Of a stretch of 64,000 nt of DNA, positions 4-46,847 are shown piece after piece (positions within the stretch are counted from its first letter, which is position 1; each line of letters opens with the position of its first letter). Origin of the DNA: Bifidobacterium ramosum (lineage in GTDB: Bacteria > Actinomycetota > Actinomycetes > Actinomycetales > Bifidobacteriaceae); the NCBI RefSeq assembly GCF_009299505.1, contig NZ_WBSM01000002.1, forward strand, positions 1 through 64,000, read 5' to 3'. A program made the position numbers and the translations under genes. Under the pieces are notes generated by a model. It searched no databases. It worked only from the letters and a program-made list of their open reading frames with translations, and was not told the DNA's origin.

Positions 4-43
4 CGACGGTTGGTATTTTCTGACGACGGTTGGTATTTTCTGA
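4..43. repeat. 20-bp direct repeat, two copies
   Basis: The unit CGACGGTTGGTATTTTCTGA occurs twice back to back, directly before the first hairpin element. The window edge may cut a longer array. Its TTTTCTG core resembles the right arm of the repeat at 18435-18573, but that similarity is short and may be chance. Confidence 0.7.
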
Positions 44-185
44 CGGACATACAGCCGATTGGGGGACGGAATCGGCTGTATGTCCGTGGGGGAGTGTGGG
101 TGTGGGGTCGGGATGGCTGTGGCGGTGTGCGACTCGGTCGACGGACATACGGTCGATTACGGGCTGCAATCGGCTGTATGTCCGT
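43..185. repeat. Hairpin-family doublet 1 (units 43-87 and 141-185)
   Basis: Two 45-bp units start 98 bp apart. Unit 1 has perfect 18-nt arms ACGGACATACAGCCGATT / AATCGGCTGTATGTCCGT around a 9-nt loop. Unit 2 has a degenerate left arm (ACGGACATACGGTCGATT) and an intact right arm. There is no T-tract, so a simple intrinsic terminator is unlikely. The same family recurs 16 more times as full copies. Confidence 0.9.
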
Positions 186-973
186 TGAGGGGGAGGGGAT
201 TGATGGGATGGGACGATGTGGGGTGTCCGTCAGAGGGGGAGGGGTGTGGCGGTCGGGAACGTCTTGGGATGTCCGATGAGGGGGAGGAATGTAACGGGAT
301 GGAGCGATTGGGCGGAGGGGTATGGTTGCGTTGCCATGAGGGGGTGTGACACGCCGATGGGGGAAAGTGTTGGGAGGGGTTGTTATGGCGCGATGCCTGA
401 TATTTCGGGGGTTTATGGGGACAACGGGACCACCGGCGCGATATTGACACCGTTGTCGTTTTTGTTTTTGAATACGTTCGCAGTAATATCGAAGGCAGTA
501 GGTGATGAGACAACATGAATAGCGGATTTTCGCAAGCCATCTCGGCGGTAACCGTCATGACAAGGTTTGCAAAAATCAAATGCCAAAAGCATGCGAACGT
601 ATGCTGTCGCGTCATCTCGACGGTACACAACGACGTAACGACATGCCCCCATGTCGAGGGGTATGCACTGACGCCGGAACAACACGGCACGGGTCGCCGA
701 AGCGGACGACACCGGACTCGAGGGAGCCAGCATGAGCCAGGCATCGCGCATCAACGCCGCATCGGCGGGATCGCCGGCGAACCACGGCCCGACGGCGCCC
801 GCCGCGACACCGCCCGCCGGACCGCCGCACCCGTGTCCCGGCGCATCCGCACCATTCCGCCCGCACTCCGGCCGACCGGCGGCACCGCTGCCGGCCTAGG
901 GCCTCCCCGGCACCCGCCGGCCATCAGACGTGATCCACCCAACGCAATCCTCCACCAAGGAAAGGAAGAAGAA
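186..973. other. Non-coding pilin upstream region
   Basis: I see no convincing gene here. The open frame continuing upstream of the pilin from 515 is Arg/Pro/His-rich, unlike a secreted protein, and the signal peptide only begins at 974. About 186-430 is G-rich. About 435-640 is relatively AT-rich and includes a TTGACA at 444-449 that could be a -35 element, though the best -10 candidate (GAATAC, 470-475) is 20 bp away. A purine-rich ribosome-binding stretch (AAGGAAAGGAAG) lies at about 957-968. Confidence 0.5.
189..212 (+). other. Predicted G-quadruplex motif
   Basis: Four G-runs (5, 4, 3 and 3 G) are separated by 1, 6 and 2 bases, which fits the G3+N1-7 rule. The following 200 bases remain strongly G-rich on the + strand. 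They repeat TGTCCG followed by GAGGGGGAGG-like DNA at about 224-244 and 269-288, looking like decayed right arms of the hairpin family. The motif lies about 760 bp before the pilin start. Function is unknown. Confidence 0.5.
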
Positions 974-3088
974 ATGAAGAAGTTGCTCCACCAGGCGATC
1001 GCCGGGGCCGCCGCCCTAGGCATCGCCGTCAGCGGCCTCGCCCTAGGCGTCGGCAGCGCGTACGCCGACGGTGACAATGCCGGCACCACGGCGACCGGAC
1101 AGATCGCGACTGCGAAGCCGAACGAGAACGGCACGATCACCATCACGGGTGATGCGCATACGTTCGCTGGCTACAAGTTGGCGAGTCTGAAGTCGCTGAC
1201 GTATGAGGCCAAGACTAACGATAGTGACTCGACGACTTATGAAATGAAGGGCTTCGAGGTCGAGACCAATTCCGCGTATACTTCGGATATCGTTGCGGCT
1301 CTTGACGAAGTTAAAGATTCGAAAGGCAATACGCTCAAGTCCGAGTATGAAGCTGATACTGCATACTCGGGCAACCCGATCGGTTGGCTGGCCAACAAGA
1401 AGTACGACACGACCAAGGAGACCAAGGCTCCGTGGGGCGGCTCCACGACCGGCACGGATTCCGAACTGCGCCAGTTCGCGACGAAGCTTGCGGCAAAGCT
1501 GAAGGATAAGACTTCGACCGATGGCACTCTGAACAGCTCTGCGGACGGTACCGAAAACAATGTCGCGCAGGGTCTGTGGCTGCTTCGCGACACCACGGCT
1601 TTGACGGACAAGCAGGAGACCGCCTCCATCCCGATCATCGTGTCGACCACGTACTCGGTGACGATTGGCGAAGACGATGCTGCGACTACCGCCGAGTTCA
1701 AGGAAGGCATCGGCACCATCGAGCTGAAGAATACCAAGCCGGAAGTCGGCAAGCAGGTCGTCAAGGGCGATGCGCAGAAGGGCTATGAGTCCGAGAAGGT
1801 CCCGGATTACAACATCGGCGATACGGTTCCGTATGAGCTGTCCGCCACCCTTCCGGACTCCTACACCGGCTACGACAAGGATCCGAACTACGGAGACTCT
1901 GCGAAGGCTAATCCTAAGAAGTCCCGCACCTTCAAGATCATCGACACCGCGTCCGCCGCGCTGACTGTGGACTGCACTCCGAAGACTGGCGATAACCTGT
2001 ACTCCAACTGCGTCGAGTCCGTCAAGGTGCTCCCGAAGACCGACACCGGTTACGATTCCACGAAGGCTGTGAAGCTGAACGCCGGCTCCGATTACGATGT
2101 CGAAACTGCTGCGGTCGAATACGGTACCGATGCCAACAAGATCGGTGAAAAGAACACTGAAGATCAGTCGAAGAACACCGCCACCAAGGTGACGGTCGAT
2201 CTCGGCAAGTACGTCAACATGGTTGCCGGCTCCACCTCCGCTTCCGCCAAGTCCGAGAAAGACACGACGCCGAACGGCATCCTCGAAGGCGGCAAGGTCG
2301 TGGTGATCTTCAAGGCCACGCTGAACAAGAGCGCCCTGCTTTCCGACCCTGGTCGCACTCAGGGCAACCCGAACAAGGTCGCGCTCGAGTACTCCAACAG
2401 CCCGGAGGACATGGAAAGCAAGCACACGACCCCGGGCGACGAGGTCAACGTGTACACCTACCGCTTCAAGATCAAGAAGACCGACAAGGGCGGCGCCTTT
2501 TATAAGGCCCTTCTTGGTGCCGAGTTCACGGTCAAGGGTCCGAATGGCTACTTGGTGTCCAAGGACGCAACGACTGGTGCTTGGAAGTTCTCCGACAACG
2601 AAAGCGACGCTGAGAAGTTCAAGCCGACCGAGGAGAGCGGTGAAGCCATCATCAAGGGGCTTGACGGCCTTGATTCCGGCGCCTACACCGTGAAGGAAGT
2701 CACGGTGCCGAACGGCTACTCTTCGCTGTCCAAGCCGGAGTTCAGCTTCACCATCAAGCCGGTGAAGGAAGCCAACAGCACGGACGATCCGGCTGTTGAT
2801 ACGAACACCAAGAACCCGTGGGGACAGAAGACTTGGGGCGATTTCGTCATTGGCGATGTGACCTTCTCTGGCCTGACTGGTACCGATAAGGTTTCCGGCA
2901 CTGGTGCGAGCTTCGTGACCGCGGCTGCCAAGTCCGGTAACGAGTTCCAGTACACCGTCTACAACGCGAAGAACATCACGGAGCTGCCGAAGACCGGTGG
3001 CGCTGGCTTGGCCCTGATCGTGGCCGTCGGCGCGCTGTTCATCGGTGCGGCCGGCATCTTCGCGGCCCGCGCCCGCCGCAACGCCTGA
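974..3088 (+). CDS. LPKTG-anchored pilin backbone (fimbrial subunit)
   Basis: Predicted major pilin of a sortase-assembled pilus, 704 aa. It has a signal peptide (MKKLLHQ, hydrophobic core, cleavage near AYA-DG at residue 30), then Ig-like pilin domains. A D1/D2-type segment with YNIGDTVPYELSATLPDSY lies near residues 275-300. A C-terminal Cna-B-like domain has FKIKKTD near residue 498 and the E-box YTVKEVTVPNGY, whose Glu575 would form the isopeptide bond. It ends with LPKTG (671-675), a hydrophobic helix and an Arg-rich tail, the standard sorting signal. The ATG at 974 is chosen for its strong purine-rich ribosome site and because it begins the signal peptide. The class C sortase that should polymerise it lies 3.7 kb downstream behind three unrelated genes. 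The pilin-motif lysine is not certain; K in KNTKPEVGKQ is a candidate. Confidence 0.92.
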   Translation: MKKLLHQAIAGAAALGIAVSGLALGVGSAYADGDNAGTTATGQIATAKPNENGTITITGDAHTFAGYKLASLKSLTYEAKTNDSDSTTYEMKGFEVETNSAYTSDIVAALDEVKDSKGNTLKSEYEADTAYSGNPIGWLANKKYDTTKETKAPWGGSTTGTDSELRQFATKLAAKLKDKTSTDGTLNSSADGTENNVAQGLWLLRDTTALTDKQETASIPIIVSTTYSVTIGEDDAATTAEFKEGIGTIELKNTKPEVGKQVVKGDAQKGYESEKVPDYNIGDTVPYELSATLPDSYTGYDKDPNYGDSAKANPKKSRTFKIIDTASAALTVDCTPKTGDNLYSNCVESVKVLPKTDTGYDSTKAVKLNAGSDYDVETAAVEYGTDANKIGEKNTEDQSKNTATKVTVDLGKYVNMVAGSTSASAKSEKDTTPNGILEGGKVVVIFKATLNKSALLSDPGRTQGNPNKVALEYSNSPEDMESKHTTPGDEVNVYTYRFKIKKTDKGGAFYKALLGAEFTVKGPNGYLVSKDATTGAWKFSDNESDAEKFKPTEESGEAIIKGLDGLDSGAYTVKEVTVPNGYSSLSKPEFSFTIKPVKEANSTDDPAVDTNTKNPWGQKTWGDFVIGDVTFSGLTGTDKVSGTGASFVTAAAKSGNEFQYTVYNAKNITELPKTGGAGLALIVAVGALFIGAAGIFAARARRNA

Positions 3089-3096
3089 CGCGCACC

Positions 3097-3119
3097 CCGC
3101 TCCCCGCACCGGGGAGCGG
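3097..3119 (+). terminator. Hairpin after the pilin gene
   Basis: A 9-bp GC stem (CCGCTCCCC / GGGGAGCGG, 5-nt loop) begins 9 nt after the stop codon. A second GC-rich inverted repeat follows at about 3129-3163. Neither has a T-run, so termination may be weak or factor-assisted. It fits an end to the pilin transcript before the inserted genes. Confidence 0.5.
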
Positions 3120-3349
3120 CCACGACGCCGGGGCGTGACGCACCACGCCCGCCCCGGCGCCCCCTCAACACTTGGTGGCGCGAGCCGGATCGCACAGCCT
3201 CTCTCATCACAGTCGCCGACCCGCACCACCAACCCCCGCCTCCTCGCCGCGCGTGTTCCTCCTATTCTCCCCGCGCGGCCGGAGGCTTCTCCATATCCAA
3301 AACCATTCCGCAATCCCCGGCCTGGCCAAGCAGTAAGAGAGACCTAGTC

Positions 3350-4024
3350 ATGACACCAGAGTTGATCTGCAATATTCTCACCACATTGGCGACCATAGGC
3401 GCCGTCATCGTCGCACTCATCCAGTTGCAGAAAACCCTTCGCCAAGAAACCGCCAACCGTCTCGAAGACCGATACAACGAGCTGCGCAACGAAGCGTTCC
3501 TCGTAGACGCATGGGTCGCCGTCACCACTGATCCCACCCACAACAACGCCAGAGTGTGGCATGTGGTACTGGACAACGAGACCACAGGCGTCATACGAGA
3601 CGTACAGGTACACGTCCAGTGGCCCGGTCTGTCCACGACCAACCTCGACGAGCACGGACTGGGCGTCATGCCGCTGGCCAGAAAGCCTTGGCTCACCATT
3701 CCCGCCGGCTCATGGCGTATCAACTACGAGAAGCGATCCGACAACATCATCTGGAGCATGCCGGTCCGTATCCACGACCCGTATGCGGAAATGAACCCCT
3801 CCTTCTTCGACCCCGCGGACAACAAGCAAGGGCAGATTCACGACCGCGTCATCCTCCAGTTCACTGACGCATACGACAACCAGTGGTGCCGCGTCTACAA
3901 GACGCACAGCACTCCCGACGATCTCACGCCGGGACTGTACCTGATCGATACCGCGAACAAACAACTAGAGCGATTCAAGTCGTCCCCGAAACGCGACCCG
4001 AAGCAGCAGCAGGCCGGCGCATGA
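3350..4024 (+). CDS. Hypothetical single-pass membrane protein
   Basis: 224 aa, no family recognised. Residues 8-27 form one hydrophobic segment (LTTLATIGAVIVALIQLQ), followed by a charged helical stretch (ETANRLEDRYNELRNEAF, about 33-50) that could be a coiled coil, then a beta-rich soluble domain with many Trp and Asp residues (VWHVVLDNETTGVIRDVQVHVQW). The C-terminus is basic and Gln-rich. It lies 65 nt before the AAA ATPase on the same strand, so it could be a membrane-anchored third component of that module, or an independent gene. It is not a pilus-type protein: it has no sorting signal. Confidence 0.7.
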   Translation: MTPELICNILTTLATIGAVIVALIQLQKTLRQETANRLEDRYNELRNEAFLVDAWVAVTTDPTHNNARVWHVVLDNETTGVIRDVQVHVQWPGLSTTNLDEHGLGVMPLARKPWLTIPAGSWRINYEKRSDNIIWSMPVRIHDPYAEMNPSFFDPADNKQGQIHDRVILQFTDAYDNQWCRVYKTHSTPDDLTPGLYLIDTANKQLERFKSSPKRDPKQQQAGA

Positions 4025-4089
4025 TCGAGAGCGCATTCCCGATCGTTCGGTAAGATCGAAGGCAGCCGCATGGAAGAAAGGTCATCGCT

Positions 4090-5466
4090 ATGAAGCTGAC
4101 GCTGGATCGTTTCGCAGGCATCGGACACGCCGAGATCCGACTCGACGGACTCACCGTCATCGCCGGGCAGAACAACACCGGCAAAAGCACCGTCGGCAAA
4201 TCGCTGTACTCCCTGTTCAACGCGCTGAACAACATCCAATCGCGACTGCTCCAGCAGCGGCGCGAGGAGATCGAAGAACAGTCCATGTCCGCACTGCGCG
4301 CATACCTGGGCGCCGTCCGTTCGAAGCGCGGCCGCTACCCGAACGTCTACGAGATCAACGCATACATCGACTACGTCATCGCACAGTACCGCAACGGTAC
4401 GTACAGCAAACATGATCCGCGGCGGGAACAATACCGCAACCGCATCACCGAAGAACTGCTGCGCGTCGCCGATCAGGAAATCGGCCAGAACGCCGACCAG
4501 GACGCCGTTGCCGACGTTCCCGAAGCACTCAGCGAATTCGTGGACCAACTGTTCTCCGACATCGACGAAATCCTCAACTATCCGGAAGACGAACTCGTCA
4601 AAACGGTGCTCTCCGACTACTTCGGCGACATGTTCCACAATCAGGTGACGCCGCTGAGCGGAGACGGCCAACGCACCTCGGTGAATCTCGACATCAAGAA
4701 CAAGCACATTGACATCACGTTCTCGAACAACGAATGCAGCACCGCCGTACGCGACATCGACATCGAACACGACGCGATCTACATCGCGAACCCGTTCATC
4801 ATCGACACGCTCAGCAAGCAGTTCTACGTAGGGCAGCTGGACATCGTGGAGCAGAATCTACGCAACAAGCTCCTCAACCAGTCCGGCCGGCCGGCCAACA
4901 CCGAAGACGGTCTGGGGGCGAACATGATTCGACGCACCATCGCCCGGGACAAGCTCGCCGACATCGAACAGCTCATCGACGGCGTGATCCCAGGCAGCAT
5001 CCAGAACCGCGCCGACGGCTACTACCTCAATTCGCCCAAAGCCGGAGGAGCCGTCAAATTCGAGAACATGTCCACGGGCCTCAAATCGTTCGCGGTGCTC
5101 AAAATGCTCATCGAACACGGCAAATTCGGCGAGCGTGACGTGCTGATCCTCGACGAGCCCGAAATCCACCTCCACCCCGAATGGCAGATGAAATACGCCG
5201 AGGTCATCGTGCTGCTGCAGAAGGCGTTCGACCTCACCGTGGTCGTGACGACGCACAGCCCGTATTTTCTGGACGCGTTCAACCTGTACTCCCGCAAATA
5301 CGGGACCAGTAGCGCGGCAAGCTACTACGTCTCGCAGCGTGATGAGTCCAACGTCATCGCCTTCGAAGACGTCACCGACGGCATCGACGCGATCTACCGC
5401 ATGATGGCGGGGCCGATCGACGTGCTCAACGACCTGCGCGACGAACTCGAGGAGCGGGGCGCATGA
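4090..5466 (+). CDS. AAA (ABC/SMC-like, OLD-type) ATPase
   Basis: 458 aa. N-terminal Walker A GQNNTGKST (residues 26-34) follows MKLTLDRFAGIG, the usual start of AAA_15/AAA_21 proteins. A long, charged, probably helical insertion covers about residues 50-230. A signature-like segment NMSTGLKS lies at 326-333. Walker B VLILDEPEIHLHP lies at 351-363 and an H-loop TTHSPYF at about 386-392. This is the ATPase type found in phage-defence and DNA-repair modules (OLD/Gabija, PARIS AriA, Septu PtuA), but no TOPRIM or HNH domain is fused to it. The stop codon overlaps the next start (ATGA at 5463-5466), so the two proteins are probably translationally coupled and act together. Assignment to any named system is not possible from sequence alone. 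Confidence 0.88.
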   Translation: MKLTLDRFAGIGHAEIRLDGLTVIAGQNNTGKSTVGKSLYSLFNALNNIQSRLLQQRREEIEEQSMSALRAYLGAVRSKRGRYPNVYEINAYIDYVIAQYRNGTYSKHDPRREQYRNRITEELLRVADQEIGQNADQDAVADVPEALSEFVDQLFSDIDEILNYPEDELVKTVLSDYFGDMFHNQVTPLSGDGQRTSVNLDIKNKHIDITFSNNECSTAVRDIDIEHDAIYIANPFIIDTLSKQFYVGQLDIVEQNLRNKLLNQSGRPANTEDGLGANMIRRTIARDKLADIEQLIDGVIPGSIQNRADGYYLNSPKAGGAVKFENMSTGLKSFAVLKMLIEHGKFGERDVLILDEPEIHLHPEWQMKYAEVIVLLQKAFDLTVVVTTHSPYFLDAFNLYSRKYGTSSAASYYVSQRDESNVIAFEDVTDGIDAIYRMMAGPIDVLNDLRDELEERGA

Positions 5467-6278
5467 GCGATCAATTCAGCGGCTCGGCGAGCGGGGCAGT
5501 GAGTGGCGTGGCGAGCGGGGCAATGCGCGATGCGACCAACACCGAGCCACAGTTCATCGATGCCGCCACGTTCGCATCGCGGGTTCTCTCCGTGACCGTC
5601 CCCAAAAAACACGACGACATCCAAGACGGCCTGCACAGCACGCTGGCGCAAACGTCATACGACACGCATCACCAAGTCGGCATGGTCGTCAGCGACCACG
5701 ACGCGGTGAACTTCGACAAGATCGCCGAAATCACCTGCCGTGCCGCATCGTACAACGCCCACGTCAAACAGCCGCGCGTACCCCGCTCGCCGGACGCGCT
5801 GATCGTGGACGACCAGCGCCGGGAATGGTACTTCATCGAGTTCAAAAACGGTCGGGTCACGGAGATGGAAGTCAGTCAGAAAATGTACGACGCCATCCTG
5901 CTGAGTCTCGACGTGCACATCGTGCCCGACCGTTCGTTTTTCAACAAGTTCGCGACGTTCATCCTGGTCTACAATCCCGAACGACTGAACGACCGGCAGA
6001 TCGCGCGATACAACGCGCATTTCGGCGGGGAGTATAAGCCCAGGCCCTGCGATCAGACGGGACGTATCCAAACGCAGGCGTACTTCAAGGATCTAGCGGA
6101 GGAAGACTTCGACCCTTTTGGCATCGCCAAGCTGAAGGGATACCTGTTCCGTGATGTCGTCGTTCAAACGCAGCGGAGATTTGCGAGAACCCATGCCGCA
6201 GAATGGGGAACTCGCATGCCGAAGCGGCGACCTGCTGAGTCGGTGGCAGCGGATGCCTCGGGTGCGCAGACTTCCTGA
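5463..6278 (+). CDS. PD-(D/E)XK nuclease-like partner of the ATPase
   Basis: 271 aa, no named family recognised. Residues 110-128 read PDALIVDD, seven residues, then IEFK. That is a literal PD...E-x-K pattern (D111, E126, K128) with hydrophobic strands on both sides, the hallmark of PD-(D/E)XK nucleases. It is followed by a helix that could carry the downstream conserved residues (SQKMYDAILLSL). The C-terminal part (KLKGYLFRD, near 223-231, then a basic tail) may bind DNA. The start overlaps the ATPase stop. A second ATG at 5523 is possible because residues 5-20 come from a duplicated GGCGAGCGGGGCA stretch with low complexity. The gene is followed within 90 bp by the six-hairpin array. A nuclease effector gated by the ATPase is the simplest reading, but it is an inference. 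Confidence 0.75.
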   Translation: MSDQFSGSASGAVSGVASGAMRDATNTEPQFIDAATFASRVLSVTVPKKHDDIQDGLHSTLAQTSYDTHHQVGMVVSDHDAVNFDKIAEITCRAASYNAHVKQPRVPRSPDALIVDDQRREWYFIEFKNGRVTEMEVSQKMYDAILLSLDVHIVPDRSFFNKFATFILVYNPERLNDRQIARYNAHFGGEYKPRPCDQTGRIQTQAYFKDLAEEDFDPFGIAKLKGYLFRDVVVQTQRRFARTHAAEWGTRMPKRRPAESVAADASGAQTS

Positions 6279-6360
6279 CGGTGGCGAAGCAGCCCGAGCT
6301 TTGTTGGACGTATTGCGCGCGTTAGGCCCGGGCATTTGGTGTGCGGATCCAGGCTGTGTG

Positions 6361-6688
6361 GTCACGCGATGGTATTTCGGGCGATTGTGCCATCGCGTGA
6401 GTCGGGTTGTCGGTGCTGCCGGTCACGCGATGGAAAATTCGGCTGGAATTCCATCGCGTGACCGAAATGGGGTGGATCGGGAGGTCACGCGATGGCAGAA
6501 TGCGACGGTTTTCCATCGCGTGACTGGGCGGCTGGTCACGGGATGGAAATATGGACTGAAATTCCATCTCGTGACCGAAAAAGGGGTTGATTGGAGGTCA
6601 CGCGATGGTAAAACGTAACGATCTTCCATCGCGTGACTGGGCGGCTAGTCACGGGATGGAAAAATCCCCCGAAATGCCATCGCGTGAC
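6361..6688. repeat. Array of six 41-bp hairpins (GTCACGCGATGG family)
   Basis: Six units of exactly 41 bp start at 6361, 6422, 6484, 6535, 6597 and 6648. Each has 12-nt arms GTCACGCGATGG / CCATCGCGTGAC and a 17-nt loop that varies. Linkers alternate between about 20-21 nt (CGAAAxxGGGGTxGATxGGAG type) and 10 nt (TGGGCGGCTG/A), so most of the array is a 113-bp tandem repeat of two hairpins (6422 to 6535, 6484 to 6597, 6535 to 6648). Units 4 and 6 carry the arm variant CGGGATGG; in unit 4 the opposite arm is CCATCTCG, giving a G-T pair. No open frame fits. It fills the gap between the nuclease-like gene and the sortase gene. Confidence 0.92.
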
Positions 6689-6756
6689 CCGGACGTGACG
6701 GTCGACGATCGGGTGCGTTGATAATGAATCGGGGCCAGCAGTATGGAGGTGGATCA

Positions 6757-10412: not shown

Positions 10413-10580
10413 ATGCTTCTTCCCCTCAACGGACATACAGCCGATTTGCAAGGTGAAAACAGCTGTATGTCCGTTGAGGGGAAGAAGCATAAGGCGCCAG
10501 GAAACGTTCCCGAGTGCGGGAAGTCCAACCCCTGACGGACATACAGCCGTTTTCACCCCGCAAATCGGCTGTATGTCCGT
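10413..10580. repeat. Hairpin-family doublet 2 (units 10429-10474 and 10535-10580)
   Basis: Starts are 106 bp apart and the loops are inverted relative to each other (the complement of the first, TTTTCACCTTGCAAAT, resembles the second, TTTTCACCCCGCAAAT). The first unit is extended outward: 29 nt from 10413 pair perfectly with 10462-10490, well beyond the family core. The DNA between units (about 10492-10530) resembles the spacer of doublet 3. Confidence 0.93.
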
Positions 10581-10674: not shown

Positions 10675-10830
10675 CCTCAACGGACATACAGCCGATTCGG
10701 GAGTGAAAATCGGCTGTATGTCCGTTGAGGTTGAAACGTGTGGCGTCAAGAACGCCCCGAGTGCCGGAGGCCTAACTCCTAACGGACATGCAGCCGTTTT
10801 CACCCTCGAATCGGCTGTATGTCCGTTAGG
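10675..10830. repeat. Hairpin-family doublet 3 (units 10680-10725 and 10782-10827)
   Basis: Starts are 102 bp apart with inverted loops. Stems extend into the flanks with unit-specific pairs: CCTCAA/TTGAGG for the first and CCTA/TAGG for the second. The spacer shares GGCG-CA--AACG--CCCGAGTGC-GGA-G-C-AAC-CC with doublet 2, so the two doublets are copies of one larger element. Confidence 0.93.
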
Positions 10831-10847: not shown

Positions 10848-10869
10848 AATTGGCTGTATGTCCGTTGAG
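10848..10869. repeat. Orphan right arm of the hairpin family
   Basis: AATTGGCTGTATGTCCGTTG appears with no left arm upstream. It lies 26 bp before the next start codon. It looks like a decayed or half-deleted unit. Confidence 0.75.
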
Positions 10870-14131: not shown

Positions 14132-14283
14132 ACGGACATACAGCCGTTTTCAACGATGGAATCGGCTGTATGTCTGTTTTTGTATGTGGTGTATGTGTGG
14201 AGAGGCGTTCCTCGGGCCTTAACACCACCCAACCTCAACGGACATACAGCCGATTCCATCGTTGAAAACGGCTGTATGTCCGT
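14132..14283. repeat. Hairpin-family doublet 4 (units 14132-14177 and 14238-14283)
   Basis: Starts are 106 bp apart. The loops are exact reverse complements (TTTTCAACGATGGAAT and ATTCCATCGTTGAAAA), so the two units are inverted copies. It begins 16 bp after the malQ stop. The rest of the malQ-rplM gap (to 14524) should hold the rplM promoter; TACACT at 14344-14349 is a possible -10. Confidence 0.94.
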
Positions 14284-15598: not shown

Positions 15599-15752
15599 TA
15601 ACGGACATCCAGCCGTTTTCAACGATGGAATCGGCTGTATGTCCGTTAGAGAAATACGCATTGCTCCCTTATGCACGTAGTGACGATCAGATCGTCCTAC
15701 CCCTCAACGGACATCCAGCCGATTCCAACGTTGAAAACGGCTGGATGTCCGT
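15599..15752. repeat. Hairpin-family doublet 5 (units 15601-15646 and 15707-15752)
   Basis: Starts are 106 bp apart with inverted loops nearly identical to doublet 4. Unit 2 has paired changes: ATCCAG on the left and CTGGAT on the right replace ATACAG/CTGTAT, so the stem is preserved. Unit 1 has ATCCAG opposite CTGTAT, a single unpaired change. It lies between convergent rpsI and glgX. Confidence 0.94.
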
Positions 15753-23101: not shown

Positions 23102-23150
23102 CTACGGACATACAGCCGATTTTGCGTCCTGAGCGGCTGTATGTCCGTAG
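23102..23150. repeat. Hairpin-family unit (core 23104-23148)
   Basis: 45-bp unit, stem extended by CT/AG at the ends. Its loop (ATTTTGCGTCCTGAG) resembles the complement of the loop of the unit at 23676, so those two are inverted copies 572 bp apart. Confidence 0.9.
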
Positions 23151-23259: not shown

Positions 23260-23304
23260 ACGGACATACAGCCGATCCGGCCCATGGATTTGGCTGTATG
23301 TCCG
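23260..23304. repeat. Hairpin-family unit
   Basis: 45-bp unit with loop ATCCGGCCCATGGATTT. The right arm reads TTGGCTG and lacks the final T of the consensus. It has no partner at about 100 bp. The following 200 bp (23305-23513) hold no gene that I can see and lead into the CRISPR remnant. Confidence 0.85.
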
Positions 23305-23513
23305 CAATAGTCGGGATGCCCGGAGGCATCTCCGGTCGTAATCGTGGTCTGACTTCGGTTTTTCGGATATCTTGGGGCGTCGTGGGTGGCGTGTCGTTTT
23401 GCGGGGGGAGTGGTTTGCATCTCGACGGATCGTTCGTTGGGTGATTCCGGCTGCTTCGATACGGTGTATGGACCATCTTGTGATAGTTGGCGTTCGTGAT
23501 CATACATGAATGA

Positions 23514-23675: not shown

Positions 23676-23827
23676 ACGGACATACAGCCGACCAAGACGC
23701 AAAATCGGCTGTATGTCCGTTGAAAAGGTAAGCCGAAACATCACGTGGGTCCGCCATAAGCGCGCGTGGCCACCTCCTTCAACGGACAACCAGCCGAAAT
23801 CACCCCTGAAATCGGCTGGTTGTCCGT
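23676..23827. repeat. Hairpin-family doublet 6 (units 23676-23720 and 23782-23827)
   Basis: Starts are 106 bp apart. Unit 2 carries paired substitutions in the stem: ACAACCAG on the left with CTGGTTGT on the right. The loops are not clearly inverted here. It begins 12 bp after the CRISPR remnant and ends 60 bp before the 3' end of the convergent decarboxylase gene. Confidence 0.93.
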
Positions 23828-24737: not shown

Positions 24738-24783
24738 AACGTACATACAGTCGATCCGGGTACCTAAATCGGCTGTATGTCCG
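24738..24783. repeat. Hairpin-family unit, ACGTAC variant
   Basis: Left arm ACGTACATACAGTCGAT against right arm CGGCTGTATGTCCGT: here the G-to-T change in ACGTAC is not compensated on the right. Same loop orientation as the unit at 24867. Confidence 0.9.
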
Positions 24784-24861
24784 TTAGAAGGGGAGTGACG
24801 CGACGATAACGATGGTTTTATATGCGGATATACGGACCTATATATAGTCGCGATCTATCTT

Positions 24862-25010
24862 CTCCAACGTACATACAGTCGATCCGGGCAGGTAAATCGG
24901 CTGTATGTACGTTGGAGGGGGAGCGGCGTTGAGAGGAGTATCTAGCCGTATGGCTTATTCCCTGACGTACATACAGCCGATTTTGGTACCCGGATCGGCT
25001 GTATGTACGT
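24862..25010. repeat. Hairpin-family doublet 7 (units 24867-24912 and 24965-25010), ACGTAC variant
   Basis: Starts are 98 bp apart with inverted loops. Both units have ACGTAC on the left and GTACGT on the right, a paired change from ACGGAC/GTCCGT that keeps the stem. The first stem extends outward by CTCCA/TGGAG. It lies between the 5' end of budA and the 3' end of the next gene. Confidence 0.94.
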
Positions 25011-36274: not shown

Positions 36275-36276
36275 TT

Positions 36277-39537: not shown

Positions 39538-39683
39538 GAGCAGATCCAGCGGCACCAAACAATCAGGCGCTGAGTCACAGGCGAGTCTCTCCCGAGAGGC
39601 ACGCTTGAACCCCGGGTACGCAGGCCCGGGCCGGGCAACCGGACGACTCGGTGCACGACCTGCGGAACACAGAAGGAATCGCA

Positions 39684-40061
39684 ATGGCACGTCTTGCCGG
39701 AGTCGACATCCCCAATGAGAAGCGCATTGAAATCGCCCTCACCTACATTTTCGGTGTGGGTCGCACTCGTGCGAAGGAAACGCTTGCCGCGACCGGTATC
39801 AACCCGGACACCCGCGTCAAGGATCTGACGGATGAGCAGCTGATCACGCTGCGTGACTATCTCGAGGGTAACTACAAGATCGAGGGCGATCTGCGTCGTG
39901 AAATCGACGCGGACATCCGTCGTAAGATCCAGATCAACTGCTACCAGGGCATGCGTCATCGCAAGGGTCTGCCCGTGCGCGGCCAGCGCACCAAGACCAA
40001 CGCCCGCACCCGCAAGGGCCCGAAGCGCACGGTCGCCGGAAAGAAGAAGGCCACCAAGTAG
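39684..40061 (+). CDS. rpsM: 30S ribosomal protein S13
   Basis: 125 aa from the ATG at 39684; [34 protein letters not shown] and [20 protein letters not shown]. First gene of a compact alpha operon. Confidence 0.98.
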
Positions 40062-40142
40062 TAGGTGGTTCGTCCGGGCCACGGGATGCATCATTCCATC
40101 GTCCGGACAGACAAACAAGTTCGTACTAGGAAACGAGGATCA

Positions 40143-40544
40143 ATGGCAGCTGCAAAGCAAGCCGCTCGTAAGCCTGTCCGCCGCCGCGACCGCAAGTCGA
40201 TCCCGGTGGGTCAGGCTCACATCAAGTCCACTTTCAACAACACGATCATCTCGATCACCGATCCGTCCGGCGCTGTCGTGTCCTGGGCGTCCGGTGGCGA
40301 TGTCGGCTTCAAGGGCTCCCGCAAGTCCACGCCGTACGCCGCTGGCATGGCTGCCGAGTCCGCCGCCCGCAAGGCGATGGAGCACGGTCTGAAGAAGGTC
40401 GACGTGTTCGTCAAGGGCCCGGGTTCCGGTCGTGAAACCGCCATCCGCTCCCTGCAGTCCGCCGGTCTTGAAGTCGGTTCCATCACCGACGTCACCCCGC
40501 AGGCGCACAACGGCGTTCGTCCGCCGAAGCGTCGTCGCGTCTGA
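40143..40544 (+). CDS. rpsK: 30S ribosomal protein S11
   Basis: 133 aa from the ATG at 40143; [37 protein letters not shown] and KRRRV at the end. It is followed directly by rpoA: rpsD (S4), which sits here in many bacteria, is absent. Confidence 0.98.
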
Positions 40545-40634
40545 GCCGTCTGAGCACTAGACATAGCAATTCATCCAAAGCCGCTTGCCTGGCCGGTGAG
40601 TGCACCACCGACCAGAAGCTGAAAGGATAACACA

Positions 40635-41630
40635 GTGCTTATCGCACAGCGTCCGACACTGACCGAGGAAGTCCTCAACCCGCAGCGCTCCCGCTTCACC
40701 ATCGAGCCTCTTGAGCCTGGTTTCGGCTATACGCTGGGCAACTCCCTGCGCCGTACCCTCCTGAGCTCGATTCCGGGCGCGGCTGTGACTTCGGTGCGCA
40801 TCTCCGGTGCCCTGCACGAGTTCACCACTCTGCCGGGCGTGAAAGAGGACGTTACCGAGATCCTGCTCAACATCAAGGGCATCGTGCTCACCAGCGAGTA
40901 CGACGAGCCGGTCGTCATGTACCTGCGCAAGAGCGGCGAAGGCGAGGCCACCGCGGGCGACATCACCCCGCCGGCCGGTGTCACCATCGCCAACCCGGAC
41001 ATGCACATCGCGACGTTGGCCGAAGACGGCGAGCTCGAGATCGAGTTCACCGTCGAGCGTGGTCGCGGCTATGTCCCGGCGCAGATGAACAAGCAGGACA
41101 ACGACGAGATCGGCCGTATCCCGGTCGACTCGATCTACTCCCCGGTGCTCAAGGTGAGCTACAAGGTCGAGGCCACCCGTGTGGAACAGCGCACGGACTT
41201 CGACAAGCTCATCCTGGACGTGGAAACCAAGCCCGCCATTTCGCCGCGCGATGCGGTCGCTTCCGCCGGTTCGACCCTGGTGGAGCTCTTCGGCCTGTGC
41301 CGCGAGCTCAACACCCAGGCCGAAGGCGTCGAGGTCGGTCCGGCTCCCGTGGCCGAGGAGACCAACCCCGAAATGGCCGTGCCGATCGAGGATCTCAACC
41401 TCACCCAGCGCAGCTACAACTGCCTGAAGCGCGAGGGCATCCACACCATCGGCGAGCTGGTGAACCACACCGAGCAGGACCTGCTCGACATCCGCAATTT
41501 CGGCATGAAGTCGATCGACGAGGTCAAGGACAAGCTGCAGACCCTGGGTCTGTCGCTCAAGGCCTCCCCGCTGGGCTTCGATACCACCAACCTCGAAGGC
41601 GGCACCTTCTACTCGCCGGAAGACGAGTGA
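40635..41630 (+). CDS. rpoA: DNA-directed RNA polymerase subunit alpha
   Basis: 331 aa, GTG start with GAAAGGAT upstream. The N-terminal assembly domain includes [20 protein letters not shown] and [14 protein letters not shown]. The C-terminal domain (about 245-315, [20 protein letters not shown] and [20 protein letters not shown]) binds UP elements and activators. Confidence 0.98.
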
Positions 41631-41717
41631 TCCGTCGCTTTTGACCAACCGCACCGCCATGCCCGGACGTTCGGGCACATGCCCACCTGAGCGTGGCGGC
41701 GCATTCAAGGAGTAAAC

Positions 41718-42221
41718 ATGCTTACACCCAAGAAGGGCCCGCGTCTGGCCTCCAGCCCGGCCCACGAGCGCCTGATGCTCGCGAACATGGCCACCAGCCT
41801 GTTCCAGAACGGCCGCATCGTCACCACGCTGCCGAAGGCCAAGCGCCTCCGCCCGCTGGCCGAGCGCCTGATCACCTTCGCCAAGCGCGGTGATCTGCAC
41901 TCCCGCCGTCGCGTGATGCGCGTCATCCGCAACAAGTCCGTCGTGCACAAGCTCTTCACCGAGATCGCCGAGCAGATGGAGCAGCGCGAGGGCGGCTACA
42001 CCCGCATCGTGAAGATCGCCCCGCGTAAGGGCGACGCCGCTCCGGCCGCGATCATCGAGCTCGTCACCGAGCCGGTCGCCAAGAAGGCCGTCGTGAAGGA
42101 AGCCGAAGCCGCGACCAAGGTTGCCGAGGAGACCGCTCCGGTCACCGAGGCCACTGAGGCTCCGGCCGAGACCGCTGCCCCGGCCGAGACCGAGGCTGCT
42201 CCGGCCGAAAACGCCGAGTGA
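41718..42221 (+). CDS. rplQ: 50S ribosomal protein L17
   Basis: 167 aa: core [20 protein letters not shown] and [20 protein letters not shown] (about 1-118), then an Ala/Glu/Pro/Thr tail of about 45 residues, as in other actinobacteria. Ends the alpha operon. Confidence 0.98.
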
Positions 42222-42234
42222 GCATAGACCACTG

Positions 42235-42266
42235 AAAGGGGTCGGGACTGAGTCCCGGCCCTTTTT
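42235..42266 (+). terminator. Intrinsic terminator after rplQ
   Basis: A stem of about 14 bp with G-U pairs (AAAGGGGTCGGGAC / GTCCCGGCCCTTTT), TGA loop and six T. Confidence 0.93.
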
Positions 42267-42296
42267 TGTATTGCGGCGTTTCGACACGCTGACAGA

Positions 42297-42378
42297 GTGA
42301 TCACGACACGCTTGATGCGTTTCCGACATCGGCGCAATCGCGCGGTTCCCGATTCCGCATCAAGCGTGTCGTGATCAC
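42297..42378. repeat. 23-bp perfect inverted repeat
   Basis: Arms at 42297-42319 and 42356-42378 pair over 23 bases without mismatch; the outer part is GTGATCACGACACGC. The 36-nt loop contains a small CCGACATCGG palindrome. No T-run follows. It lies between the rplQ terminator and truA, 29 bp before the truA ATG. Sequence unlike the other hairpin families here. Confidence 0.92.
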
Positions 42379-42407
42379 CTCACCGGCGTGTCGTACTATG
42401 AATACCC

Positions 42408-43331
42408 ATGAGACTCAGAATCGACCTGGCATATGACGGCGGCGGCTTCTACGGCTGGGCGAAGCAGCCCACCCTGCGCACCGTGCAAGGGGAGATCGAG
42501 GATGCGCTGCACAAGATCCTGCGCGTGCCGACCGATCCCACATCGTCCGAAGCACAGGCCGAACCACTGCGACTGGTTGTCGCCGGCCGCACCGACACCG
42601 GCGTCCACGCCAGCCATCAGGTCTGCCACGTCGACGTCACCCCGGACACCCTCGCCCGCGCGGTCGGCCACATGGACGTGCCGCCGACCGTCGCACTGAC
42701 TCGCCGTCTGCAGCGCATCCTGCCGCCCGACATCACGATCCGCACGATTACCCCGGCTCCGGACGGCTTCGACGCGCGGTTCTCCGCACTCGAACGTACG
42801 TATGTGTACCGCATCGCCGACCGATCGTCCGAAGTCGACCCGCGCATGCGCGGTTTCGTCCTGCACATCGACGACGATCTCGACATCGCCGCGATGAACG
42901 CGGCCGCCGCGATGACGATCGGACTGCATGACTTCGGCTCGTTCGCGACGCCGAATCCGGGAGGCACGACGATCCGCGACGTCAAGATCGCGTACTGGCG
43001 ACGGATTCCGGTCCGTCCGCTGATTGACGACGTCGACGCGATGGGGGAGCGCTACCGTACGCCGGCGGCCGAGTCGGGACTGCTGTGCTTCACGATCGTG
43101 GCCGACGCGTTCGCCCGCAACATGGTGCGATCGCTGGTCAACGGATGCGTGCAGGTCGGCGTCGGCAAACGGTCGCTTGACTGGTTCGCCAGCAAAATGG
43201 CGACGCCGTTGCGCGAAGGCTCCACCGGACCGATCGCCCCGCAGGGCCTGACGCTCGAGCACATCCAGTATCCGCCCAACGACCAACTTGCCGCCCGCGC
43301 CGAAGCCATCCGCGCCAAACGCACGCTGTAG
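42408..43331 (+). CDS. truA: tRNA pseudouridine synthase A
   Basis: Makes pseudouridine at tRNA positions 38-40; 307 aa. Catalytic Asp63 in AGRTDTGVHASHQ, the N-terminal IDLAYDGGGFYGWAKQ and the C-terminal ARNMVRSLVNGCVQVG. Two insertions make it longer than the E. coli enzyme. It follows the alpha operon, the usual actinobacterial order. Confidence 0.97.
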   Translation: MRLRIDLAYDGGGFYGWAKQPTLRTVQGEIEDALHKILRVPTDPTSSEAQAEPLRLVVAGRTDTGVHASHQVCHVDVTPDTLARAVGHMDVPPTVALTRRLQRILPPDITIRTITPAPDGFDARFSALERTYVYRIADRSSEVDPRMRGFVLHIDDDLDIAAMNAAAAMTIGLHDFGSFATPNPGGTTIRDVKIAYWRRIPVRPLIDDVDAMGERYRTPAAESGLLCFTIVADAFARNMVRSLVNGCVQVGVGKRSLDWFASKMATPLREGSTGPIAPQGLTLEHIQYPPNDQLAARAEAIRAKRTL

Positions 43332-43526
43332 CACGCCCGTAACACAGCCGCCCACAGCCGGTAACCGCGCGCGACTAGCGTAACCCGTATTCATGGCGAC
43401 GGCCACGGACGGCGCAAGCGTGCGTCCGCAACGGCCGGCGCCGCCCACGCAACCGCATGTGTCACCGATCGGGCGTGGGCAGCGGTAACCGGCGACAGCC
43501 GGACGGGACGAAGGCGAGGAGCGAAC

Positions 43527-45719
43527 ATGGCTGCATCGGCGATCAATCTGGCGGGCGAACTGGTCAACCGTCGCGAGGCGATCAACCGTGAGCTGAGCCG
43601 CAACGGCGTGCGGTTCGGCGTGTACAAAAACGGCGAGTACCACGACCGTCTCTTCCCGTACGATCCGATTCCGCGCGTCATCGAATCCGACGAGTTCGAC
43701 CGGCTCGAGGCCGGCCTCAAGCAGCGCGTCAACGCACTCAACGCGTACCTCAAGGATATCTATTCCGAGAAGAAGATCATCCACGACGGCGTCATCCCCG
43801 AGGAATACGTGTACACGTCGGCCGGCTACTTCCCGCAGGTCAACGGCGTGACCCCGCCCGGTGGCATCTTCGCGCACATCGCCGGCGAGGACCTCGTGCA
43901 GGGCGAGGACGGCCGCTGGTGGGTGCTCGAAGACAACCTGCGCATCCCATCCGGCGCGAGCTACCCGCTGTTCGCGCGCGACATCGAACGCCGCACGAAC
44001 CCGAAGCTGTTCCGCGAGGTGCACGTGCGCGACAACCGCGACTACCCGCGTCTGTTGCGCAAGGCGATGGACTTCGTCTCGACCGAGGGCATCGCCGTGG
44101 TGCTCACCCCCGGCCGCTACAATTCCGCGTTCTTCGAGCACGCGTACCTCGCCGAGAAGACCGGCGCGGCGCTCGCGTTCCCCGAGGACCTCGAAGTGGT
44201 CGACAACAAGCTGTTCTTCCTCGACTACGCCGGCAACCGGCATCGCGTGGGCGCGGTGTACCGGCGCCTGTCGGACGAATACCTGGACCCGTTCGCGTTC
44301 AACCCGGATTCGGTGATCGGCGTGCCCGGGCTGCTCTCCGCATACCGTTCCGGCAACGTCGCGATCATCAACGCGCCCGGCAACGGAGCGGCCGACGACA
44401 AGGCGATCTACTATTTCGTGCCGCAGATGATCACGTACTACCTCGGCGAGAAGCCGATCCTGCACAACGCGCCGACGTACATGCCGATGTTCGAGGCCGA
44501 TCGCAAGACCGTACTCGACCGGCTCGGCGAGCTGGTGATCAAGGACGTGGCCGAGGCCGGCGGATACGGCGTCGTGTTCGGGTCGTCGCTCGACCACGCC
44601 GCGCGCGAGGAGCTGGCTGAGCGCATCAAGGCCGAGCCGCGCCGGTTCATCGCGCAGGAGGTCATCCAGTTCCGTGACATCGACGTGATCGACCCCGAAA
44701 CCGGCGAGGCGAGTCCGCGTAAGGCCGACCTGCGCGCGTTCGTCGTGACCGGCCAGAACACGCACGTGTGGTATTCCGGCCTGACCCGCTACTCGTCGGT
44801 GCCCGGCCAGATGATCGTCAATTCGTCGCAGGGCGGCGGCTTCAAGGACACGTGGGTGCTCGCGCCCGAGCATGGCAGCGAATCGCACGAGCGCGCGCAG
44901 CAGCGCGACGAATCGATCGCGTCGGTGAATCTCATCCCGCACTCGCGCAAGCATACGTTGTCACTGGTCACCGCGTCGAAGGCCGACAACCTGTACTGGC
45001 TCGGCCGTTACACCGAGCGCGCGTTCACCACGCTTATCCAGTTCTTCCCGTTCTACGACCGCGTGATGGACACCGACGTGGACGCGTTCCGCCCGTTCGC
45101 CCGCGCGCTCGACCTGCCCGAGGACTTCGAGGACTTCGACGGTTTCATCCATTCGTTCCTGTACGACGGCACGAATCCTGATTCGGTGCGCAGCGCGATC
45201 GTCGCCGCGTTCAACAACGCCGTCGTGCTGCGGCCGGAACTCACGTCGCGACTGCTGCAGTACGTCGAACTCGCGGTCACGAACATCACCGACGCGGCCG
45301 AACGGTCGGCCAGTGCGAGCGACATCTACGCGCAGCGCGACATCGCCGACGACATGCTCGCGTTCTGGGGCGGCATCGAGAACTCGACCGTCGACGTGAC
45401 GCTGAAGGCGTTCGTGTTCATCGGCAAGTACGTCGAACGCATCGACCTGTACACACGCTTCCGTCTGCCCGAGGACGAACTCGACGCGCCGCTCGCCAAA
45501 CTCGAGACGTACTCGCGCGCGCTCGACGGCAAGCCGCTGCCGCAATGCTTCGTGTCCGGCATCAGCTGGCTGCTCGGCCAGCTGCCGGACCGCGGCTATC
45601 CGGAGCTCACCAAGCGGCTGCGGGGATTCCTCGACGACTTCAACAGCCGCGCGATTTCCGGTGAGGCCAAGGACGCCGGCACGCTCAACTCGATGAACAT
45701 GGACGCCAAGCGGCCGTGA
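43527..45719 (+). CDS. Circularly permuted ATP-grasp protein fused to an Alpha-E domain
   Basis: 730 aa. Residues about 20-450 match the CP_ATPgrasp family (FPYDPIPRVIESDEFDRLEAG-like start, VLEDNLRIPSGASYP, VPQMITYYLGEKPIL, KDVAEAGGYGVVFG, RFIAQEVIQFRDIDV). Residues about 480-715 are an Alpha-E domain starting at SKADNLYWLGRYTERAFTTL. In many bacteria these are two genes; here they are one protein. The family is predicted to form amide bonds in a peptide or cofactor product, still unknown. It is followed by a transglutaminase, the usual third partner, so the pair should act together. Confidence 0.9.
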   Translation: MAASAINLAGELVNRREAINRELSRNGVRFGVYKNGEYHDRLFPYDPIPRVIESDEFDRLEAGLKQRVNALNAYLKDIYSEKKIIHDGVIPEEYVYTSAGYFPQVNGVTPPGGIFAHIAGEDLVQGEDGRWWVLEDNLRIPSGASYPLFARDIERRTNPKLFREVHVRDNRDYPRLLRKAMDFVSTEGIAVVLTPGRYNSAFFEHAYLAEKTGAALAFPEDLEVVDNKLFFLDYAGNRHRVGAVYRRLSDEYLDPFAFNPDSVIGVPGLLSAYRSGNVAIINAPGNGAADDKAIYYFVPQMITYYLGEKPILHNAPTYMPMFEADRKTVLDRLGELVIKDVAEAGGYGVVFGSSLDHAAREELAERIKAEPRRFIAQEVIQFRDIDVIDPETGEASPRKADLRAFVVTGQNTHVWYSGLTRYSSVPGQMIVNSSQGGGFKDTWVLAPEHGSESHERAQQRDESIASVNLIPHSRKHTLSLVTASKADNLYWLGRYTERAFTTLIQFFPFYDRVMDTDVDAFRPFARALDLPEDFEDFDGFIHSFLYDGTNPDSVRSAIVAAFNNAVVLRPELTSRLLQYVELAVTNITDAAERSASASDIYAQRDIADDMLAFWGGIENSTVDVTLKAFVFIGKYVERIDLYTRFRLPEDELDAPLAKLETYSRALDGKPLPQCFVSGISWLLGQLPDRGYPELTKRLRGFLDDFNSRAISGEAKDAGTLNSMNMDAKRP

Positions 45720-45802
45720 GCGGTCGTACGTGAGTGTGGTGGACTTGCAGAACGACGTGACATGGCTGGACATACGCGTGTCCGGCCACACTTGCGGGCG
45801 TG

Positions 45803-45834
45803 CGGAACGGCCGGACCCGACCGCGGCCGTTCCG
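45803..45834 (+). terminator. Hairpin between the ATP-grasp and transglutaminase genes
   Basis: An 11-bp stem (CGGAACGGCCG / CGGCCGTTCCG) with a 10-nt loop. TAGACT at 45846-45851 follows and could be the -10 of the transglutaminase gene, which would make the two genes separate transcripts. Confidence 0.5.
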
Positions 45835-45913
45835 TCGCCCTCTGCTAGACTGGAGTGGCCTTATACGTCGGTAGGTCCGTCCATAAGTCCGTCCACTTGA
45901 GGAGTCGTGTTTC

Positions 45914-46714
45914 ATGAAAAAACTGGTGTTCGACTACGAGATGAAGCTGTCGTTCAGCTCGCCGGTCACCGATCACCGATTCCAGTTGCGTTGTGTGCCG
46001 GCCACCGGTCCGCGGCAGCAGGTCGTGGACGTCGAGGTCGACATCGAACCGCACGTCGACCTCGAAACAACCATCGACTCGTTCGACTCCGTGGTCATGA
46101 CCGGGTTCATCCCCGAGCCGCACACCATGTTCAACTATACGGTCAAGGGCATTGCGTTCGTCGACAACGAGCACATCAAATCCGAGATCTACAAGCCGCT
46201 GTACCGGTTCAACTCCGCGCTGACGATCCCCGGCCCGTGCATCGAGCGCATGATCGAGATGTGCAAGATTCGTCTGTCCGCACTGCCGATCGACGCCACG
46301 CCGATCGATCAGGCGCGCGAGGTGATGGACGAGGTGTTCCACGCGTTCGTGTACACGCCCGCGTCCACGACGATCCGTACGACGGCCGAGGAGGCGCTCG
46401 CCCAGCGCAAGGGCGTGTGCCAGGACTACGCGCACGTGATGCTGTCGGTGTGCCGTCATGTCGGGCTGACCGCGCGGTACATCGCCGGACTGCTCGGCGG
46501 CGAGGGCGCGACGCACGCGTGGGTCGAGATCTACCATGACGGGCGGTGGATCGGCCTCGACCCGACGCACAACCGCATGGTCGACGACAACTACATCACG
46601 ATCGCGCACGGGCGCGACTACCGCGACTGCATGCTCGACATCGGCATCTTCTCGGGCGTGAACGTGCGGCAGCACCAGTGGGTCAACGCGTCCGTGCACG
46701 AGCAGCGGCTGTAG
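45914..46714 (+). CDS. Transglutaminase-like cysteine peptidase/ligase
   Basis: 266 aa. An N-terminal beta domain (about 1-90) is followed by a transglutaminase core with Cys169 (GVCQDYAHVML), His201 (ATHAWVEIY) and Asp216 (IGLDPTHNRMV), the full papain-like triad. Cytoplasmic: no signal peptide. Family members next to CP_ATPgrasp/Alpha-E genes are thought to cleave or exchange the amide product. GAGGAG lies upstream of the ATG at 45914. Confidence 0.93.
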   Translation: MKKLVFDYEMKLSFSSPVTDHRFQLRCVPATGPRQQVVDVEVDIEPHVDLETTIDSFDSVVMTGFIPEPHTMFNYTVKGIAFVDNEHIKSEIYKPLYRFNSALTIPGPCIERMIEMCKIRLSALPIDATPIDQAREVMDEVFHAFVYTPASTTIRTTAEEALAQRKGVCQDYAHVMLSVCRHVGLTARYIAGLLGGEGATHAWVEIYHDGRWIGLDPTHNRMVDDNYITIAHGRDYRDCMLDIGIFSGVNVRQHQWVNASVHEQRL

Positions 46715-46801
46715 GGGTTGCGGGCGTTGTGGCTTTAGCCGGGGTGCTGCGGGCGGTACGCGGAGATTGCGGGACGTCTTCTGTGCCCCATCCCTTTCAT
46801 A

Positions 46802-46847
46802 ACGGACATACAGCCGATTGCGGGCGGGAAATCGGCTGTATGTCCGT
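46802..46847. repeat. Hairpin-family unit (isolated)
   Basis: 46-bp unit with perfect arms and loop ATTGCGGGCGGGAAAT; stem extended by A/T on each side. It is the only copy in the right half of the window and has no partner. It lies between the transglutaminase gene and tRNA-Ser. Confidence 0.93.

Follow-up and report, generated by a model that had tools for sequence, protein, structure and literature searches.

Bifidobacterium ramosum carries, between its genes and on their 3' side, hundreds of copies of a short palindromic element with a rigid architecture, arms that are specific to the species, preferred spacings between neighbouring copies and more paired arm changes than chance predicts. 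We read it, with about an even chance of being right, as a REP/REPIN-like dispersed intergenic repeat that does without RAYT, whose half-sites would be read by a putative protein and whose paired changes would stem largely from fold-back copying. The element was described in an earlier note on a 64-kb stretch of B. ramosum DNA (the window), made from the sequence alone.

Hairpin copies in the window

Scanning the window with the arm sequence (at most 3 mismatches) gave 36 matches, against 0.09 expected from 100 shuffles. All 18 hairpins of the earlier note were recovered, and its placement of them between genes holds, with none of the 18 inside a gene predicted by the simple gene caller written for this analysis. 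Seventeen lie in groups of 2-4, and 5 of the 11 within-group distances measure 102-106 bp. The hairpins, given here without strand, begin with two 45-bp copies at 43..87 and, 98 bp after it, 141..185. The following group opens with 10429..10474 and 10535..10580, 106 bp apart, with nearly reverse-complementary loops and outer flanks that match at length; it continues with 10680..10725 and, 102 bp on, the 45-bp copy 10782..10826, which has a one-sided arm change. The arm scan added a partnerless half-arm on the minus strand (10848..10865), missing from the earlier note. Copy 14132..14177 starts 15 bp after a malQ-like gene, and its loop is the exact reverse complement of that of 14238..14283, which follows 106 bp later upstream of rplM-rpsI. 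After rpsI come 15601..15646, with a one-sided arm change, and 106 bp further 15707..15752, with a paired one. Another set consists of 23104..23148 (45 bp), 23260..23305 (one-sided arm changes), 23676..23720 (45 bp) and, 106 bp after the last, 23782..23827, which bears two paired arm changes and whose left arm lies beyond the mismatch limit of the arm scan. Copies 24739..24784 (two one-sided arm changes), 24867..24912 (one paired and one one-sided) and 24965..25010 (one paired) are followed by a solitary hairpin at 46802..46847.

A fixed frame around a variable centre

The constant part of the element is a 15-nt arm, ACGGACATACAGCCG, together with its reverse complement, and between them lies a variable centre. 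The earlier note had given the loop as 9-16 nt; this is better stated as a gap of 15 or 16 nt between the 15-nt arms in all 18 window copies, or 9-10 nt if the arms are counted as 18 nt, within a rigid total length of 45-46 bp. The three bases adjoining each arm are mostly ATT and AAT, and the rest of the element varies.

Detailed counts were made on 147 copies from 864 kb of the 3.03-Mb genome (the window plus 40 stretches, 6 of which were picked where copies were already known). The arm gap is 16 nt in 118 of these copies, 15 in 28 and 18 in one, and both arms are perfect in 64. Orphan arms number 7 in the 864 kb, none of them at element-length distance. In the closest relative compared (G075, with an S9 protein 99% identical), the gap is 16 nt in 56 of 56 copies. 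Invariant inverted ends around a fixed-length centre of free sequence, the layout of REPIN-type repeats, thus occur in B. ramosum and G075 alike. The element is symmetric, its foot lacking head and tail.

Copy number and placement

Across the B. ramosum genome we counted 516 copies (each arm with at most 3 mismatches, gap exactly 16 nt), against no site for the reversed arm pattern under the same criteria; perfect 18-nt arms occur at 127 sites. In the sample, 146 of 147 copies fall outside genes predicted by the same simple caller, so that the element is, like REP/REPIN repeats, a high-copy extragenic palindrome. Gaps of at least 60 bp are occupied at 22/75 between convergent genes, 33/274 between tandem genes and 5/78 between divergent genes, and in tandem gaps the median distances are 63 bp from the stop codon of the preceding gene and 189 bp to the start codon of the following one. 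Clusters of at least two copies make up 49 of 68. The neighbouring genes are ordinary (malQ-like, rplM and rpsI are examples from the window), and none of the 80 flanking or nearby proteins scanned, which cover part of the genome, is a transposase or recombinase.

Copies are unevenly distributed on the largest contig (C1; L033-L047 and L130-L145), with 57 in the first 280 kb and 12 in the 340 kb that follow. As to a possible link with replication, the GC skew of this contig was too noisy to give its orientation, and dnaA lies on a different one. Elsewhere (L041, 11506-14986) two adjoining genes with 532-aa ORFs each have a similar pair of hairpins behind them, and the second gene matches the GNAT acetyltransferase family; here a gene duplication took the hairpin repeats along.

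Paired changes and stem extensions

The paired arm changes named by the earlier note at 15707, 23782, 24867 and 24965 are all present. The note had listed paired changes only; arm positions in the window are changed on both sides in 5 cases (in 4 copies) and on one side in 11. Among the 147 sampled copies, 34 arm positions are identically changed on both sides, where independence predicts 4.6. These claims are based on the 147-copy count and not on alignment A1, which combines 54 evenly taken copies with 9 added for their variable arms, so that its counts lean to covariation. Pairing also continues somewhat beyond the arms: uninterrupted pairing outside them averages 2.54 bp against 1.31 bp when permuted, outer positions 1-3 pair above chance (p ≤ 0.001) and positions from 7 outward do not. 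Perfect stem extensions of 9-14 bp occur in 7 of 147 B. ramosum copies and 3 of 56 in G075.

In G075, uninterrupted pairing outside the arms is 2.39 bp against 2.04 bp permuted (p 0.006). At its commonest variable arm position (A or T) the two arms agree in 31/56 copies, against 27.4 expected (p 0.24), and are uncorrelated; a second, rarer position is correlated (50/56 against 45.8 expected, p 0.004); paired arm changes overall number 17, with 13.1 expected.

From the paired changes the earlier note had argued for selection or templated copying of the stem, an argument that it staked on paired changes exceeding single ones. The excess over independence stands, but one-sided changes outnumber paired ones, 98 vs 34, in the 147 copies, and the commonest variable position of G075 is uncorrelated between arms. 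Selection on the stem is thus weakened as an argument, and the paired changes do not support it. Templated copying fits better because a few copies have long perfect extensions and the average copy has none beyond position 6. Template switching is described as able to generate and mend stems in a single step (PMC8794818). Its fold-back form leaves the occasional long, perfectly paired extension. The above-chance pairing at outer positions 1-3 and the correlated arm position in G075 could still reflect selection for pairing.

Complementary loops and spacing of neighbouring copies

Neighbouring copies in B. ramosum show a spacing peak at 102-108 bp, which holds 27 of 79 neighbours. At this spacing 10 of 27 neighbours have loops in which at least 8 of 10 positions are reverse-complementary, compared with 0 of 52 at other spacings and a background of 0.7% among 9,959 distant pairs. 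The complementarity belongs to the hairpins: in 13 units spaced by 102-108 bp with at least 6 complementary positions, it reaches 0.85 in the loops against 0.35 expected, while the 20 bp of linker beside the hairpins (0.27-0.32 against 0.30-0.37 expected) and the outer flanks are not raised and the linker centre rises slightly (0.42 against 0.32). At the linker centre, a small palindrome resembling GGAACGTTCC occurs in 6 of 15 complementary units, 1 of 12 other units at 102-108 bp and 0 of 52 others. Units with the same loops can have unrelated linkers of equal length, as at 14132/14238 and 15601/15707. The complementary loops follow if the 46-bp element was copied in inverted orientation, with loop-loop contact as the rival account. 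The loops are also non-random in sequence, following a degenerate oriented consensus near ATTYGGGTGGGGAAAT in B. ramosum and one near GTTCGGGGGGCGGAAC in G075 (the reverse complement of the printed form), each well above five shuffled controls.

Spacing in G075 follows a different set of values, with 73-74 bp in 18 of 40 neighbours, 84-85 bp in 7, 94-97 bp in 4, 105 bp in 2 and 63 bp in 1, and other relatives use 63-64 bp. The peaks at 63, 73.5, 84 and 105 bp come close to integral multiples of the 10.5-bp helical turn, a pattern to be expected of a protein that contacts half-sites from one side of the DNA. A Rayleigh test at 10.5 bp on the G075 spacings gave R 0.72 (p 9e-10, n=40), and 0.55 (p 0.002, n=21) without the main peak; after near-identical linkers were dropped at a calibrated threshold, p was 6e-9 (n=35) and 0.005 without the main peak (n=17). 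We nonetheless regard helical phasing of neighbouring copies as suggestive only, because the signal vanished (p 0.24) once similar linkers were collapsed more harshly, to 11 spacings, periods from 10 to 11.4 bp fit about equally well, and the B. ramosum spacings outside the main peak show no 10.5-bp phasing (R 0.06, p 0.82, n=51; p 0.87, n=41).

The element across the genus

The earlier note had proposed a covariance-model scan of the genus, which we ran on 112 Bifidobacterium genomes. The exact B. ramosum arms occur in three of them, namely B. ramosum itself, B. biavatii (3 copies) and B. olomucense (1 copy). A covariance model of the B. ramosum copies matches 16 genomes, in which the arms differ and the 46-bp frame is the same, and a genus model (R2) built from 43 copies of several species, ungapped over its 46 columns, matches 28. 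The rows of this model (alignment A2) were hand-picked, 12 of the 28 matched genomes contributed rows, and some matches lie near the threshold. Order-wide, the first covariance model matched 2 of 149 genomes from 64 genera, both Bifidobacterium, and two patterns had no match in viral contigs.

The form CCGGGCWTACGGCCG is present in 152 copies in G075 but in 1 in B. ramosum, 17 in G035 and 0 in 8 further genomes. Species thus tend to have amplified an arm sequence of their own, and all of these sequences fit about nCGRRCWTACRGYCn. In the hand-picked 43-row alignment, both arms have changed together between species at 11 of 14 pairs. One B. ramosum copy (G000:C4:84432-84477) has arms GCGGGCATACGGCCG that resemble the relatives' form.

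The distance between half-sites is well kept. Measured between 14-mer starts, inward half-sites lie 32 bp apart in all pairs of G074 (2), G067 (7), G035 (8) and G075 (58), and 32 or 31 bp apart in 144 of 146 B. ramosum pairs in the same scan for the genus half-site; between 15-mer starts the distance is 31 bp in all 56 copies found in 400 kb of G075. Sampled units of G048, G016 and G067 consist of four alternating half-sites 31, 32 and 31 bp apart. At one G067 locus (L101, contig C2) an exact 63-bp tandem repeat of the hairpin unit places eight alternating half-sites in a row.

Sites turn out to be lineage-specific where loci could be compared: the rplM-rpsI hairpin pairs are absent at 24 of 24 orthologous loci. 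The corresponding gaps before rplM and after rpsI in three relatives aligned too poorly for insertion ends to be read off, and two of these three sequences did not match over much of their length. As to a possible in-situ replacement of arms between B. ramosum and G075, four of 16 G075 groups have both flanks in the sampled B. ramosum DNA, and two of these four gaps contain copies there, with one loop similar.

The B. biavatii group lies inside a 5.7-kb block that is 95.8% identical to B. ramosum (L017, 1-5629; L051, 14289-20000). Judged from these alignments, the block looks transferred, because it sits between stretches of 88% and 82% identity. Differences within it affect 13 of 60 loop positions, 36 of 330 linker positions and 92 of 4,898 remaining positions, in an alignment that is partly wrong at one end. 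The hairpin groups diverge far more than the genes, as if copies had been swapped between groups.

Discussion

In the reading that we prefer, the functional unit would be an inverted pair of half-sites of about 15 bp, 31 bp apart from start to start (45-46 bp in total), and a putative trans-acting DNA-binding protein would read the half-site (about nCGRRCWTACRGYCn) in duplex DNA. The arms would be the part that is copied and kept, with the centre and the flanks left to drift, and a shifting specificity of the putative reader may have given each species its own arms. Spread would be helped by a putative enzyme other than a Y1 (RAYT-type) transposase, a mover that we infer because the B. ramosum genome holds no transposase of that type. 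Paired changes, long stem extensions and complementary loops of neighbours may largely result from fold-back (template-switch) copying between inverted copies, and selection for the folded stem would not be the main source of the paired changes. Against this reading stand the lack of a transposase or recombinase among the 80 proteins scanned in part of the genome, the unphased B. ramosum spacings outside the main peak, the disappearance of the G075 signal under the harsher linker collapse, the pairing of outer positions 1-3, the correlated arm position of G075 and the choice of some sampled stretches for their known copies.

The element could instead be a classical REPIN family whose RAYT (Y1) transposase is now gone, falls into a gap of the assembly or has diverged beyond the reach of the Pfam model, which we consider unlikely. 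Fixed arms, a fixed-length variable centre and compensatory changes are as reported for REPINs (PMC3116915), and the high extragenic copy number, the doublets and clusters and the lineage-specific sites (the rplM-rpsI pairs missing at all 24 orthologous loci) agree with it as well. But the Y1 transposase (RAYT/TnpA_REP, PF01797) is absent from the 99.67%-complete B. ramosum draft of 25 contigs and from 27 of the 28 R2-positive genomes; seven of the 112 Bifidobacterium genomes have it (G016, G019, G033, G045, G060, G061 and G069), with G016 as the sole carrier among the R2-positive ones. Within 8 nt of the B. ramosum copies, GTAG occurs in 0/147 on either side and CGTC in 1/147 on the left and 0 on the right (in G075, GTAG in 1/56 and CGTC in 5/56 on the left, none on the right). 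A symmetric element with no head-and-tail foot and with no target-site duplication of at least 3 bp in any of the 147 copies further argues against this family. The same flanks bear on the suggestion that the element is a MITE of a DDE-type insertion sequence with the arms as its terminal repeats. Inverted termini and high copy number would suit such an origin, as would flanks that agree over 2 bp in 50 of 147 copies, where permutation predicts 37.4 (maximum 47 in 300 permutations); yet these matches are mostly palindromic TA, which is indistinguishable from stem extension, none of the 147 copies has flanks that agree over at least 3 bp, and 46 bp is very short. With no parent transposon sharing the terminal repeats among the 80 flanking or nearby proteins scanned in part of the genome, and with no orphan arm at element-length distance among the 7 in 864 kb, we hold the MITE origin to be highly unlikely.

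Enrichment behind genes and between convergent genes would also be expected of a 3' hairpin acting in RNA, ending transcription or protecting mRNA ends and selected for a stable stem; stem pairing in 94.7% of the cells of alignment A1, and pairing above chance for about 3 bp past the arms, point the same way. The earlier note was right that no T-tract follows the copies, however: of 147 copies, 5 have at least four T in a row in the next 12 nt of the plus strand and 1 has such a run on the minus strand, unlike intrinsic terminators. G-U mispairs are expected to be favoured in an RNA stem under selection, and the sense-strand mispairs in tandem gaps are G-U in 18 cases, A-C in 15 and other in 17. 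Loop orientation in these gaps is equally even (G-rich 34, C-rich 35, equal 7), so the tandem-gap copies show no RNA-strand bias in either respect. This balance and the missing T-tract favour a role that would be strand-blind and exerted on duplex DNA. Conservation of the arm sequence, moreover, would be superfluous in a terminator, one-sided changes exceed paired ones and five divergent gaps are occupied too, and we judge the RNA-level hairpin quite unlikely. Very unlikely, in our estimate, are kissing hairpins, in which copies about 105 bp apart would form an RNA or DNA structure through complementary loops. The 10 of 27 neighbours at 102-108 bp with at least 8 of 10 complementary loop bases (0/52 elsewhere, 0.7% background), and a complementarity limited to the hairpins of the 13 units (0.85 vs 0.35, adjoining linkers not raised), are what such contacts would leave, but an inverted copying event explains the loops equally. 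As a general design we rejected kissing loops: 17 of the 27 neighbours at 102-108 bp have no complementarity, and in the relatives' 63-bp units the two outer loops have a short inverted motif resembling AACGA in common but fall short of full complementarity.

Returning to a half-site that a protein would read, we tentatively extend it to a genus-wide system of DNA addressing, doubtful as this extension is: hundreds of 46-bp sites would be bound by a putative cooperative reader that diverges by species, with half-sites three helical turns apart and sites grouped at whole turns. If it were true, the whole site set of a genome would turn over together, and the element would combine the roles of a site that structures the chromosome and of a selfish repeat independent of RAYT. 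The literature consulted ties REP/REPIN repeats to RAYT transposases, and a family of this layout, with hundreds of copies and arms that change from species to species but no RAYT gene in 27 of 28 carriers, would mean that some other enzyme is able to spread repeats of this kind or that they are maintained by a binding protein. With many sequenced species in one genus, the joint change of hundreds of sites and their reader can be followed. The element also calls for caution, in that a DNA repeat can show paired stem changes with no functional RNA behind them.

Comparison with known repeat families

The earlier note knew of no named family with this sequence. That part stands, in that no Rfam covariance model reaches its gathering score in the window and we found no prior description in Bifidobacterium in the open literature searched; the layout, in contrast, is known, being that of REP/REPIN repeats. 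As described in PMC3116915, REPINs have two invariant inverted ends of 16 bp and a spacer that is critical in length and pairing capacity, and compensatory changes are common among them. Our element shares the near-invariant inverted ends of about 16 bp, the centre constrained in length and pairing, the compensatory changes and the hundreds of extragenic copies in doublets and clusters. It differs in measuring 46 bp in total, where the REPINs of Pseudomonas fluorescens and others in that account have at least 71 bp between their ends, and in being symmetric, without a RAYT gene and without the GTAG/CGTC foot, with arms proper to each species in a common 46-bp frame. The element works like a REPIN, yet stands outside REP/REPIN membership because its genome has no Y1 transposase and its copies have no GTAG/CGTC foot.

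The GTAG/CGTC-tagged palindromic families of PMC3733652 are likewise restricted to a species or genus, form dimers and show complementary stem changes, whereas the Bifidobacterium element is untagged, with stems of 15-18 bp and loops of 10-16 nt; the main text of that paper mentions neither Actinobacteria nor Bifidobacterium. The repetitive hairpin elements of mitochondria (PMC2800124) are also dispersed, short and intergenic, but they are organellar and are likened here by their description. The BIMEs of enterobacteria (PMC2817692) resemble the element as regularly spaced intergenic palindromes of alternating orientation, a regularity seen here in the 49 of 68 clusters with at least two copies and in the peak at 102-108 bp, and that source names IHF and gyrase as the proteins that bind them in E. 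coli. Their sequence is unrelated, and the units of the Bifidobacterium relatives are built instead of alternating half-sites 31, 42, 53 or 63 bp apart.
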